A DNA stretch of 64,000 nucleotides, from contig NZ_VNWN01000004.1 of NCBI RefSeq assembly GCF_012720115.1, positions 372,001-436,000 of the forward strand. The letters run 5' to 3'. The notes under the pieces were generated by a model that made no database searches, was not told where the DNA came from, and was given only the letters and a program-made list of their open reading frames with translations. How positions within the stretch are numbered: the first letter of the stretch is position 1; every line of letters starts with the position of its first letter. This DNA is from Sneathiella chinensis. GTDB lineage: Bacteria; Pseudomonadota; Alphaproteobacteria; Sneathiellales; Sneathiellaceae. Made by a program: the position numbers and the translations under genes. Shown piece after piece: positions 36,864 through 41,459 of this stretch.

Positions 36864-36950
36864 GTTTCTGAAACATCTTCAGTGTTTATTAACGGCTCCT
36901 TGCTATGTCCTGCAGGTTAAAGTGGTAACTTGTGTGGTTGGAGTAAGGAA

Positions 36951-38723
36951 GTGTTGAAGAATATTACCATCAGTAAAAAGATACTGGCACTGGTCGGGGC
37001 GTCGCTGATTGCGATGCTGGTTATGGGGGGGCTGGGGATCACGGCGATTGACAGCGCCCTGACAAATGGCCGCAAGGCGACCCTGAAGACCGTTATTCAG
37101 AATGCGGAAAGTGTTTCCGACCATTACTACAAGATGGCTGTGGCCGGGGAGTTGACTGAGGAAGCTGCGAAGCTGGAGGCCATGAAGGTGCTTCAGGACA
37201 TGCGCTATAACGACAGCGATTACCTGACCATCACCGATTCCAATGCGGTCATGCTGATGCATCCTTTTGTGAAAGACCTGATCGGCAAGGATCAGATGCA
37301 GACAAAGGATGCCAATGGAAAATTCTTCTTCCGTGAAATGCTGGAGGTCTCGAAGAAGCCGGACGGCGGATATGTGGGGTATGTGTTCCACAAGCCGGGA
37401 TCGGATGTCCCCATCGAGAAATTGAGCTATGTGAGGCTTTTCAAGCCGTGGGGCTGGATCATCACAACCGGCGTTTATATGGATGATCTGGAGAAGACCC
37501 GTTCTGAATATGTCACCGAGTTGGTGGCAGCGGGGGCAGTTGTCCTGTTTGTCATTATCGGCATTTCCATGCTGATCGGCCGCAGTATCGTCCGGCCATT
37601 GGCCCGGATCACAGGCAATGTGGAACGTCTGGCCGAAGGGGACAAGGATTTCGAGCCTACGGATACGGACCGCGGGGACGAGATCGGGCGCCTGTCCAAG
37701 GCATTGGCCCTGTTCCGGGAGAATGCGATCCAGATGGATGCCATGGCGGCCGAGCAGGAAGAGATGCGTCAGCGCCAGATCGAAGAGGAACAGCGCGCCA
37801 TCACGGAGCGGGAAGAAGCGAAGCGCCGCGAAGTCGAGCAGCAACAGGCCGCAGAACAGCGTGCGGAAGAAGAACGCAAGCGGGCCATGCTGCAACTGGC
37901 GGAAACATTTGAAAGCAGTGTGCAGGGGATCGTGACCACGGTGTCTTCCTCGTCCGAGCAGATGCGGGGCGCCGCGGAAGGTTTGAGCCGCAACGCATCC
38001 GATGCCAGCGAGCGGTCCAATCTGGTGGCTTCCGCGTCTGAGGAAGCATCGACAAGTGTGCAGGCGGTCGCATCGGCCACCGAGGAATTGTCTTCCTCCA
38101 TCCGGGAGATTTCCTCACAGGTAAGCCGGTCGGCCAGCATCTCGACCCGTGCGGTGGAGCAGGCCAACAGCACCGGAAATGCCATGACATCGCTGCAGAA
38201 TGCGGCCAGCAAGATCGGCGAGGTAATCACCCTGATCAACGATATCGCCGGCCAGACGAACCTGTTGGCCCTGAACGCCACGATCGAGGCGGCACGGGCG
38301 GGGGATGCCGGCAAGGGGTTCGCCGTGGTTGCGTCCGAGGTGAAGAGCCTTGCCAACCAGACGGCCCGGGCCACCGAGGAAATCTCTGCCCAGATCTCTG
38401 CCTTGCAGTCTGAAACCCAATCCACGACGACGGCGATCCAGGAGATTTCGGAGACCATTCGGGAGATCAACCACATCGGGACGGCCATTGCCTCAGCCGT
38501 GGAACAGCAAGGCGCGGCAACGTCTGAAATCAGTCGGAACGCGCAGACAGCGGCCCATTCCGCAGGGGATGTGACAATGAATATTACCTCCGTTCGGGAA
38601 ACGTCCGGTGCCACCGGTGTGGCGGCGAACGAGGTTCTGGGGGCGGCGGAGTTGCTGTCCCGGCAATCTGGTGAGTTGCGTGATCAGGTGAGCCGTTTCC
38701 TGGCATCGGTCAAGGCATCCTGA
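36951..38723 (+). CDS. Methyl-accepting chemotaxis protein with single Cache (sCache_2) sensor
   Basis: A 590-residue transmembrane chemoreceptor. Span 1 is about residues 9-30; the periplasmic part (about 40-180) has sCache_2 features ([24 protein letters not shown] and [18 protein letters not shown]); span 2 is about 185-207. A HAMP domain follows, then a Glu/Gln/Arg-rich coiled stretch (about 260-315) and the signalling domain with the hairpin tip [21 protein letters not shown]. The C-terminus ends SVKAS, without a CheR-binding pentapeptide. GTG at 36951 has GGAG 7 bases upstream. sCache_2 domains commonly bind small organic acids; the ligand here is unknown. Confidence 0.95.
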
Positions 38724-38796: not shown

Positions 38797-38827
38797 CACA
38801 AAAAAAGGCGGGGAGACCCCGCCTTGA
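38797..38827 (-). terminator. Rho-independent terminator of the 40-residue membrane protein gene
   Basis: AAGGCGGGG (38805-38813) and CCCCGCCTT (38817-38825) form a 9-bp stem with a 3-base loop. On the minus strand it is followed by seven T residues and lies 28 bases after the stop of the small gene at 38855. Confidence 0.88.
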
Positions 38828-38854
38828 TTTTGCATTGCAAAAATAAATTCTAAA

Positions 38855-38977
38855 TTAGTGGTAGGAGCCAACTGCCCACAGAACCATCATGATCGGAAAT
38901 GCGAAGATGGCTGCGAAATCCTTGATTTTGGAGGCGTTGAACGTCTTATTCGCGGATTGTGTGGCGTTGGTTGACAT
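38855..38977 (-). CDS. 40-residue single-span membrane protein, unknown function
   Basis: The frame encodes MSTNATQSANKTFNASK followed by IKDFAAIFAFPIMMVLWAVG and SYH. Residues 1-17 are polar and Asn/Ser/Thr-rich; residues 20-37 form one membrane span. Evidence that it is a gene: AGGT 8-9 bases before the ATG, a dedicated strong terminator after the stop, and upstream a perfect FNR/FixK palindrome exactly 41.5 bases from the start site predicted by a TATAAG box. Small FNR-controlled membrane proteins elsewhere include accessory subunits of terminal oxidases, but I see no match to CydX, CcoQ or CcoM. Function unknown; expression under low oxygen is inferred. Confidence 0.78.
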   Translation of the reverse strand: MSTNATQSANKTFNASKIKDFAAIFAFPIMMVLWAVGSYH

Positions 38978-39024
38978 CGTGACTACCTATATTTTATGCA
39001 AAGTGATTCATTCAATTCGGTCGC

Positions 39025-39066
39025 CTTATAGGCAATGTTCGCATATGCAGCATTGATTGTGATCAA
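39025..39066 (-). promoter_or_regulatory. Class II FNR/FixK-type promoter of the 40-residue membrane protein gene
   Basis: TTGATTGTGATCAA (39053-39066) is a perfect TTGAT-N4-ATCAA palindrome. On the minus strand the -10 box TATAAG occupies 39030-39025 and predicts a start at 39018. The palindrome centre (39059.5) is then at -41.5, the standard position for FNR-type activation. The leader would be about 41 bases. In the plus direction no -10 box falls at the matching place, so any effect on the gene at 39128 is uncertain. Confidence 0.8.
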
Positions 39067-39127: not shown

Positions 39128-39562
39128 TTGATAAAGGAAGTTGGCTGTACTATTGCAGCCTTGATTGCCGGGAAGCGAGCGAAAAGTCTGGTGGCGTCAT
39201 TGGAGAAAATCGGGGCGAATGAACGGGGGCGGGCCGCCTTGGCAGCGGCGCTGCTGATGTGCGCTGGCACCGCGTTCCTGACAGGGCTGACGGTTCTTCC
39301 CAATGCGAAAACCCGTCATCTGGCCGTTATCTTTCCGCCAACTGCGGCGCTGACGGATATTCTGGGTGACCTGTCCGCCCATCCGGTCCAGTTCATCGGC
39401 ACCGGGGGATGGGACAATATTGTGGTTGTCCGCCCGGAAGACGGTGTTCAGGCTGATCATATGCAGTTTGAGAATGCCCTGTTTGTTGTTGATGCGCTGG
39501 CGGGGGGCGCCTGCCTGTCCGCAGAAAGCCGGTCCGGTTCCTTGAAGAGGGGGTTATTATGA
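39128..39562 (+). CDS. Uncharacterised membrane-anchored protein coupled to a chemoreceptor
   Basis: Not recognised. The protein of up to 144 residues has one membrane span (about 36-57, [21 protein letters not shown]), then about 85 residues probably in the periplasm with a mixed beta/alpha pattern: [32 protein letters not shown]... then [10 protein letters not shown]. Its last four bases overlap the ATG of the downstream chemoreceptor (ATGA), so the two are made together and may interact. The start is uncertain: TTG 39128 is the outermost; GTG 39191 and TTG 39200 would remove most residues before the span. Codon use is normal for the region. Confidence 0.7.
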
Positions 39563-41097
39563 ATGCACTCGAAAATCTGCGATTGTCCGTTGCCCGATCA
39601 ATCGTAGTTCTGTTGTGGCTCCATGTGCCGGTAACCTTTCTGACGGCCATGGCCGTGGGCGCGGACTGGATGGCGGCAACGGTTGGGGCTGCTGTTCTGG
39701 CCGGGCTTACCACGCTGTTCTATCGGCGGGATGAGGTTTCGCTGCTGTTCCGGTATATGGCGGGCATCAGCTATATGGTTCAGGTCGGTTTGCTGGTTTA
39801 CGTCTTTACGGGTCACCCGTGGCAGATCGATATTCATATGTATTTCTTTGCCAGTCTTGCCATTGTGGCCGCGCTTTGCTGTTGGCGGACCATTATTGTG
39901 GCAACCCTGACCATTGCCCTGCATCACCTGATCCTGAATTTTGTCTTCCCGGCGGCGGTCTTCCCGGACGGGGCGGATTTCCTTCGGGTTGTCCTTCATG
40001 CCGTTGTGGTGGTTCTGGAATCGGCGGTGCTGACCTGGCTGACCTTCAACCTTGTCCGGGCCTTCGGCAAATCAGCGGCAGCGGTTGAGGAGGCGGAACA
40101 GGCAACCCGGTCCGCCGAAAGCGAGAAGCTGCGCGCCCTGCAAGCAACCGAGGAGGCGCGGCAGTCAGAAGCGCATGTCAATGAACTGCGGGCGGAGGCA
40201 GAGCGTCTTAACCTTGAGAAGCTGGCAGAGGTGGAAAGCGCCCGGGAAAAACGCCAGAAGGAACGGGCAGAGGTGGCCGGGCATTTTGAGGAAAATGTCG
40301 GGCAGATTGTGCGCAAGGTCGCCGAGAATTCCCGCACCCTGACCCGTCTGGCGGCCAACATGCAGACCCTGTCCGGGTCGGTGAGCAGCAAGGTAACAGA
40401 AGCCGTCAATGTAACGGATACCATGTCCGGCAACGTTCAGTCTGTTACATCCGCAACCGAGGAATTGAGTTCGTCCATCCTTGAGATTTCCAGTCAGGTC
40501 AACCAGTCAAGCCGGGTGGCGGCCAATGCCACGGAGCGGGCTTCGGCAACGGCGCAGACCATGGGGCAACTGAAATCGGCGGCACAGCAGATTTCCGAAG
40601 TGGTCAGCCTGATCAGCGATATTGCGGAACAGACAAACCTTCTGGCGTTGAATGCGACCATTGAGGCCGCCCGGGCCGGTGAAGCCGGGAAGGGGTTTGT
40701 TGTGGTTGCCAACGAGGTGAAGAATCTGGCGACCCAGACGGCCCGTGCCACAGAGGATATCACCACACAGGTGGCCGGTATCCAGCAGGTCAGTGAAAAG
40801 GCCGCTGGCGAGATCGAGACAATCCTGTCCATCATCAACGAGATCAGCAGTACCACCACATCCGTTGCCGCTGCGGTGGAGCAGCAGACCGTGGCAACCA
40901 ACGAGATATCCCAGAGCACACGGTACGCCTATGACGGGACGATCCGGGTCAAGAACGAGGTGTCCGAAATTGACGGATACTGCACGCAAAGTATCGAGGC
41001 GTCGGAAAATGTGCTGAACGCGTCGTCCGAACTGGTCGAGGATGCGGACAAGGTGCTGGCTGAGGTGAGCCGGTTCCTTGAAAAAATCCGCGCCTGA
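39559..41097 (+). CDS. Methyl-accepting chemotaxis protein with six-span membrane sensor
   Basis: A 512-residue chemoreceptor without a periplasmic sensor domain. About six membrane spans fill residues 10-170, and several histidines lie in or at the edges of them: [23 protein letters not shown] and [12 protein letters not shown] coiled coil rich in Ala/Glu (about 175-245) replaces a clear HAMP, and the signalling domain has the tip [21 protein letters not shown]. It ends EKIRA, with no CheR-binding pentapeptide. The histidines could bind metal or haem, or sense something in the membrane; this is inference. Translation is coupled to the upstream uncharacterised protein. Confidence 0.9.
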
Positions 41098-41123: not shown

Positions 41124-41459
41124 CTACAGCAGGATGATTTCCAGCCTGTAGGGAGGGGTTCCCTTGACCAGAACCACCTCAAGATCATGGGTGGTTGGAA
41201 CGGATTTCCGAAAATGAACCCCCCACGCGGTGATGTCGATCCGGCAGATCAGCGGGCCGTATTTCAGGGCCACCTGATACCCGGCGGATGATCCGGTGCA
41301 TTGGCAGCGGTGATACTGAAACGGGGGCAGGGTTTCAGGGGGCGGGGAGGTCCAGACAAGGTCGTCCGTCTCCAGCGACGTGTCCGAGGCAAGGGACGTG
41401 TAGGCCAGATCCTGACCTTCAATGGTATTGATCAACGCGATATCCACATCCAACGGCAT
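41124..41459 (-). CDS. Hypothetical protein of 111 residues
   Basis: Not recognised. It is soluble, with no signal peptide or membrane span, and contains three cysteines (YHRCQCTG and LICRID) that could bind a metal. The C-terminal half is beta-rich (AWGVHFRKSVPTTHDLEVVLVKG then PYRLEIILL). It reads as a real gene: AAGGGAAG lies 6 bases before the ATG and codon use follows the surrounding genes. It lies between the second chemoreceptor (convergent) and recO (divergent) and is probably transcribed alone. Its stop lies in a CCTACAG/CTGTAGG stem followed by six T residues on the minus strand, a weak terminator. Confidence 0.68.
   Translation of the reverse strand: MPLDVDIALINTIEGQDLAYTSLASDTSLETDDLVWTSPPPETLPPFQYHRCQCTGSSAGYQVALKYGPLICRIDITAWGVHFRKSVPTTHDLEVVLVKGTPPYRLEIILL

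Follow-up and report, generated by a model that had tools for sequence, protein, structure and literature searches.

A small gene framed by a predicted promoter and a terminator

The stretch of Sneathiella chinensis DNA analysed in the present study (64000 nucleotides, called the window below) contains on its minus strand a small gene, which is accompanied by the following features.

38799..38825, minus strand: intrinsic terminator with a 9-bp stem AAGGCGGGG/CCCCGCCTT, the loop TCT and then a T run
38855..38977, minus strand: 40-codon gene, ATG to TAA, encoding 40 amino acids (from homologues and a codon test)
38986..38988, minus strand: AGG of a weak Shine–Dalgarno-like stretch (AGGTAG), 8 bases before the ATG (from reading of the sequence)
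39025..39030, minus strand: -10 hexamer TATAAG, with a predicted transcription start at 39018
39038..39052, minus strand: TGC-rich operator-like element TGCTGCATATGCGAA, between the FNR box and the -10 hexamer
39053..39066, no strand assigned: FNR/FnrL-type box TTGATCACAATCAA (minus-strand reading), conserved upstream of all 20 copies of the gene
41124..41459, minus strand (the same as the small gene): conserved upstream neighbour, an ORF of 111 amino acids that marks the orthologous locus

The original prediction, which was made from the letters of this DNA, had described the ORF, the palindrome, the TATAAG hexamer and the terminator, and we found each of them where it had been placed. The terminator stem proper occupies 38825–38805 and is followed by the T run; the stretch folds with -21.2 kcal/mol (z = -4.5 compared with shuffled sequences). 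The encoded protein has a polar, K/R-rich N-terminus followed by one hydrophobic helix at residues of about 20–38.

In the window, MCP chemoreceptor genes lie on either side of the small gene (36930–38723 and 39559–41097), and there are no respiratory genes near it. The region of the FNR box may also be shared by a divergent plus-strand ORF (39128–39562) that precedes the MCP gene, and a similar small ORF adjoins an MCP gene at another locus (L040). The ORF at 41124–41459 has no Pfam match; its protein of about 110 amino acids carries a CRIDxTAWG motif and adjoins recO wherever we read it in Sneathiella. The order in relatives is parC, recO, the co-directional gene of the 41124–41459 type, sometimes an MCP gene, the small gene and then gatB-gatA-gatC, and the organism of the window is without the usual gatBAC neighbour beside the small gene.

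Conservation of the gene across Sneathiella

Searching related genomes with the 40 residues, as the original prediction had suggested, revealed copies throughout Sneathiella with both the reading frame and the FNR box conserved. By profile search, an intact ORF is present at the same locus in 20 of the 25 Sneathiella genomes, the copies ranging from 30 to 43 amino acids in length. One more genome (G017) has a damaged copy (C357, L023), which was excluded from the alignment with its in-frame TGA stop and an N-terminus that is not intact. In two good genomes (G019 and G023) the locus is otherwise intact but lacks the ORF together with the FNR box. In addition, a second, partial copy fused to a gatB fragment was seen in one genome (G001, C12:859253–859306, L024).

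Over the 21 core codons, differences per pair at codon positions 1, 2 and 3 were 0.31, 0.20 and 0.59 respectively, and synonymous and non-synonymous codon differences numbered 1164 and 1635 in frame compared with 215 and 2607 or 226 and 2546 in the shifted frames. Since the 20 copies are related by descent, neither these counts nor those of the promoter elements described below should be read as independent events; at 62% identity the effective number is about 4. The in-frame excess of synonymous differences indicates selection at the protein level, and the small gene is almost certainly a real protein-coding gene. We found no convincing match in 285 other Alphaproteobacteria, a class-wide profile search outside the genus returned chance-level matches only, and the viral contigs searched held no relative of the small protein. 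These searches support a family restricted to one genus, a point that was absent from the original prediction, and a genuine, Sneathiella-specific, one-gene transcription unit appears to be the best explanation of the locus.

Small hydrophobic proteins may also be toxins of the type I toxin–antitoxin kind, and the product of this gene has the size and hydrophobicity of one. However, nearly all of the genomes carry one copy of the gene, at a fixed chromosomal place and behind the box of a metabolic regulator, our scan found no antisense promoter, and the gene has been cleanly lost from two species. A toxin is therefore extremely unlikely.

A probable FNR-type promoter layout

The centre of the palindrome lies at -41.5, provided that transcription starts at the predicted position 39018. 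Although exact TTGATNNNNATCAA sites number only seven in the 3.55-Mb genome, a one-mismatch search for the box in the window would yield about two matches by chance, so that a lone palindrome is not striking by itself, and the evidence that we regard as decisive for the observation is comparative. An FNR-type box is found upstream of every one of the 20 intact copies (16 exact, three with one mismatch and one degenerate), at a distance of 19–24 bp, usually 21–23 bp, from the start of the best -10-like hexamer, which is weak in several copies.

As the box is symmetric and lies between both genes in the window, it might instead serve the divergent plus-strand ORF that begins at about 39128, upstream of the MCP gene. 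Many relatives, however, have a co-directional neighbour in this place and no divergent gene, yet still possess the box, with its distance from the small ORF preserved, and the box was lost together with the small ORF in G019 and G023, which makes this alternative very unlikely.

The genome of S. chinensis itself encodes an FNR-type regulator (L115:2–772) with an N-terminal cysteine cluster and an ETVSR recognition helix. Its best NCBIfam match is FnrL, with a score of 171.6 bits that is below the strict cut-off of that model, and its gene directly adjoins hemN and ccoNOQP, which also carry an FNR box. Control of the small gene by FnrL is very likely. The comparison across the genus supports both a probable FNR/FnrL-type class II promoter layout, the distance between box and -10-like hexamer usually fitting one, and the one predicted membrane helix that the original prediction had proposed, and its reading of the gene as encoding a small membrane protein made at low oxygen is well supported as a prediction.

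Other exact FNR boxes in the S. chinensis genome were also read. One (L098, C12:938945) precedes the aa3 oxidase subunit II gene by about 90 bp, which suggests oxygen control of the aa3 operon. Three more (L099, C12:1267966; L097, C12:801246; L096, C12:32039) lie, in this order, before a DksA-like small zinc-finger protein, before an HD-domain-like protein and near a Crp/Fnr-family gene without the FnrL cysteine pattern.

A second promoter element with similarity to the PhaR operator

The TGC-rich element between the FNR box and the -10 hexamer was missed by the original prediction. Its core TGCATATGCG is at 39040–39049, with the centre at about -26.5, and TGCTGCAnnTGCGA is conserved directly 3' of the FNR box across the copies. 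The general form of the box can be written [TC]GC[AG]NN[TC]GC[AG], and the strict core is present at -26.5 in 13 of the 20 small-gene promoters, where shuffled sequences would give 0.03; a further copy lies at -72.5 in six promoters. A single composite of FNR box and TGC element is present in each of 18 of the 25 genomes, always at the small gene, the exception being one extra match with three mismatches in G005. The idea that the element is a -35 box was dropped, since the element resembles a palindrome and the TGC box turns up at other promoters as well.

The genus was scanned for TTGCANNTGCGAA and the neighbourhoods of the matches were read. The same TGC box is found before thiolase (phaA) genes, where it is often paired, and at the promoter of the sRNA mmgR (Rfam RF00519, ‘Makes More Granules Regulator’) in seven genomes (L138, at C12:686707 of the S. 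chinensis genome, and L146, L151, L165, L211, L221 and L237). In the mmgR promoters that we read closely the TGC box has an inverted partner. The boxes of the phaA promoters (L190–L209, phaR regions) are about 20 bp apart, with a centre spacing of three or four bases depending on the species.

The repressor PhaR (AniA), which binds the storage polymer PHB, also binds directly to the mmgR and phasin promoters of Sinorhizobium meliloti, its motif having the core YGCRNYGCR, and the phasin promoters have paired PhaR boxes around -35 (PMC12542648). The Sneathiella TGC box is similar to this motif, but has one extra central base, giving a spacing of four bases rather than three between the GC pairs. 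The window promoter, with two central bases (TGCATATGCG), thus departs from the published operator, and among the small-gene promoters the canonical YGCRNYGCR is seen only in G011 and G021, where a PhaR-type box of this kind lies at -61/-62 and the long form is absent. In the G008 promoter we saw neither the TGC box nor a canonical PhaR-type box. A PhaR gene (PF07879) is present in 23 of the 25 Sneathiella genomes, that of S. chinensis included. The TGC box is likely to be a variant PhaR operator in Sneathiella, and mmgR is apparently a PhaR-type target in this genus, i.e. outside the rhizobia.

The box might also belong to another regulator of acetyl-CoA or PHB metabolism. The four-base spacing is consistent with this, as are the typical PhaR-type boxes that coexist at the phaR promoter in several Sneathiella genomes and the further TGC sites before livH-like and gyrA-like genes. 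Against it, the phaA promoter of S. chinensis has a canonical three-base-spaced box at -117 where its relatives have the four-base form, in G011 and G021 a canonical box takes the place of the long form at the small gene, and mmgR, a direct target of PhaR in S. meliloti, has the long form in Sneathiella. The variable spacing at phaA suggests that Sneathiella PhaR tolerates both forms or that two regulators are involved; the swap at phaA and the canonical box in G011 and G021, taken together, point to the same regulator for both forms. As these observations are post hoc and concern few cases, PhaR-type control of the small gene is only probable, and a different regulator is the less probable, but still quite possible, assignment. 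With PhaR as the preferred regulator, the second conserved element suggests that the gene is linked to PHB as well as to oxygen.

A predicted membrane helix with one conserved face

AlphaFold predicts a single helix over residues 12–38, with a pLDDT of about 94 for residues 21–40. Across the family P28, W34, A35 and S38 are invariant and I24, F27, M31 and Y39 nearly so, and all eight residues lie on one face of the helix. The conservation is periodic at 100 degrees, with permutation p values of 0.0005 for the whole core and 0.0002 for its inner part. Such one-faced conservation is what would be expected of packing against a partner, and docking of the protein on another membrane protein seems fairly likely. 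The hydrophobic stretch is short, with a mean hydropathy of 1.6–2.6 over 17 residues, and the flank that precedes it has 2–7 K/R compared with 1–2 acidic residues. By the positive-inside rule, K/R-rich flanks of membrane helices stay on the inner side, and the N-terminus is therefore probably inside.

The main alternative to a membrane-spanning role is that the product is a mini-protein of the PHB granule, whose helix would coat the polymer or anchor granules. PhaR-type control is typical of phasin genes, the PhaR-like box is common to phaA, mmgR and the small gene, and the paired boxes in six copies recall the S. meliloti phasin promoters (PMC12542648). However, the conserved stripe, which includes S, Y, W and P, resembles a protein interface, the hydropathy and the K/R-rich flank fit a membrane span, the family scans gave no match to a phasin family, and FNR control is not typical of phasins. 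We consider a granule protein unlikely.

Comparison with known small proteins

Scanned against Pfam and NCBIfam, the window protein had no match above threshold, the only sub-threshold matches being to PetN (PF03742; 12.1 bits compared with a curated cut-off of 20.3), to which three of the 20 family members match weakly. None of the 20 members had a convincing match in Pfam, and a profile search of the PDB gave no match at E values up to 10. The claim that the protein corresponds to no named small subunit of an oxidase is borne out both by these searches, with no Pfam, NCBIfam or PDB family above threshold, and by the separate genes described below.

CcoQ (FixQ) is likewise small, spans the membrane once and is controlled by FNR in the S. 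chinensis genome, but differs in its sequence pattern, and the identity was rejected as a separate true CcoQ is encoded inside the ccoNOQP of S. chinensis (L115:4727–4894). CcoS was rejected similarly, being separately encoded in the cco cluster of this genome. Subunit IV of the aa3 oxidase (PF07835, COX4_pro_2), also a small single-span alphaproteobacterial protein, was rejected since the small protein does not match the profile and a different gene does; such a separate PF07835 gene is present in 23 of the 25 Sneathiella genomes, including that of S. chinensis. CydX, a small single-span accessory subunit, was rejected in the absence of cytochrome bd, there being no cydA (PF01654) match in the S. 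chinensis genome, nor in 12 other Sneathiella genomes. The YohP-type small membrane proteins of E. coli are alike in being short, with one helix and stress-type control (PMC12719787), but differ in regulation and lineage, and family scans, the one check made of a relation, found none.

The closest parallel among oxidase subunits is CcoM of Pseudomonas stutzeri, a 36-amino-acid subunit of the cbb3 oxidase that is important in oxygen limitation (PMC10433244). It resembles the small protein in size, single helix and low-oxygen link (PMC10433244). The small protein has no detectable similarity in sequence to any PDB chain; in contrast with CcoM, the small gene has a second, PHB-like control element, and membership of the cbb3 complex is here only a candidate role. 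A CcoM-like accessory subunit, i.e. a stabilizing helix made at low oxygen and encoded away from the cco operon, would nevertheless accord with the single conserved helix face, the FNR boxes before ccoN and the CcoM precedent itself. Moreover, cbb3 genes (FixO) are present in all 18 high-quality genomes of the genus, which makes this oxidase the natural first candidate for a partner. G019, which is without the small gene, has a diverged CcoN (about 70% identity), whereas the CcoN of S. chinensis is 83–88% identical with those of three other holders of the gene. However, G023 is also without the small gene and has the common CcoN (86% identity with that of S. chinensis), and as this breaks the pattern the co-distribution with the type of cbb3 is only suggestive. 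The failure of any PDB chain to match the small protein and the lack of a homologue among the other Alphaproteobacteria searched also count against a cbb3 subunit, which we regard as doubtful. More broadly, G023 does without the small gene while retaining FnrL-type cco genes, PhaR and the common cbb3 oxidase, indicating that the small protein is not essential to any of these. A second ccoNOQP cluster, more diverged than the first, occurs in some species (L119 and L120, G018), its CcoN being about 56% identical.

A respiratory partner in general can be proposed only tentatively, at somewhat less than an even chance; a role as a respiratory subunit is plausible, with the cbb3 oxidase as first candidate.

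Proposed mechanism and implications

In the mechanism that we propose, FnrL would bind the box at -41.5 and activate the small gene as oxygen falls, and the TGC box at -26.5 would be bound by another regulator, for which PhaR, a repressor that responds to PHB, is the likeliest candidate. PhaR would be expected to block RNA polymerase unless PHB granules titrate it away, so that the gene would be expressed when a shortage of oxygen coincides with a surplus of carbon. The resulting protein of 30–43 residues would insert in the membrane with its N-terminus inside, and its conserved face (I24, F27/P28, M31, W34/A35, S38/Y39) would pack on a larger membrane protein, which it may tune or stabilize; the most plausible partner is a respiratory complex, the cbb3 oxidase first among them. 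We judge the combination of a coding gene, dual control and docking, with the partner left open, to be slightly more probable than its negation. The fullest version, in which a genus-specific small membrane protein, through a promoter that responds jointly to low oxygen, via FnrL, and to a full PHB store, via the release of PhaR, adjusts a respiratory complex, is rather unlikely to hold in every part.

This Sneathiella promoter can be set beside known systems. Like the PhaR-repressed phaP1, phaP2 and mmgR of S. meliloti it has a TGC-rich palindrome near -35/-10, sometimes paired, and it shares the TGC element with mmgR of Sneathiella itself; it differs from the S. meliloti genes in the extra central base, in the combination with an FNR box and in a product that is neither a phasin nor an sRNA. 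In the literature consulted, a link between storage-polymer sensing and micro-oxic respiration is described via regulators such as PhaR and FixK2 in rhizobia (PMC10888616), and not via one dual promoter.

The observation is thus confirmed, and strengthened by the comparison across the genus. Annotation commonly overlooks small membrane proteins, and guessing their partners is difficult; for this one the comparison provides unusually clear handles in the form of a defined family, a helix face with eight conserved residues and a compact two-switch promoter. What is new is the TGC-rich second box beside the FNR box, recurring at the phaA and mmgR promoters, and it is this PHB-linked element that we find of greatest interest, since it opens a specific dual-input logic to testing. 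If the logic of oxygen plus PHB is right, the small gene would be a single point at which storage-polymer sensing meets micro-oxic respiration, and its product would, if the full proposal is true, be a direct protein link between the two, by which electron flow is matched to the carbon store.
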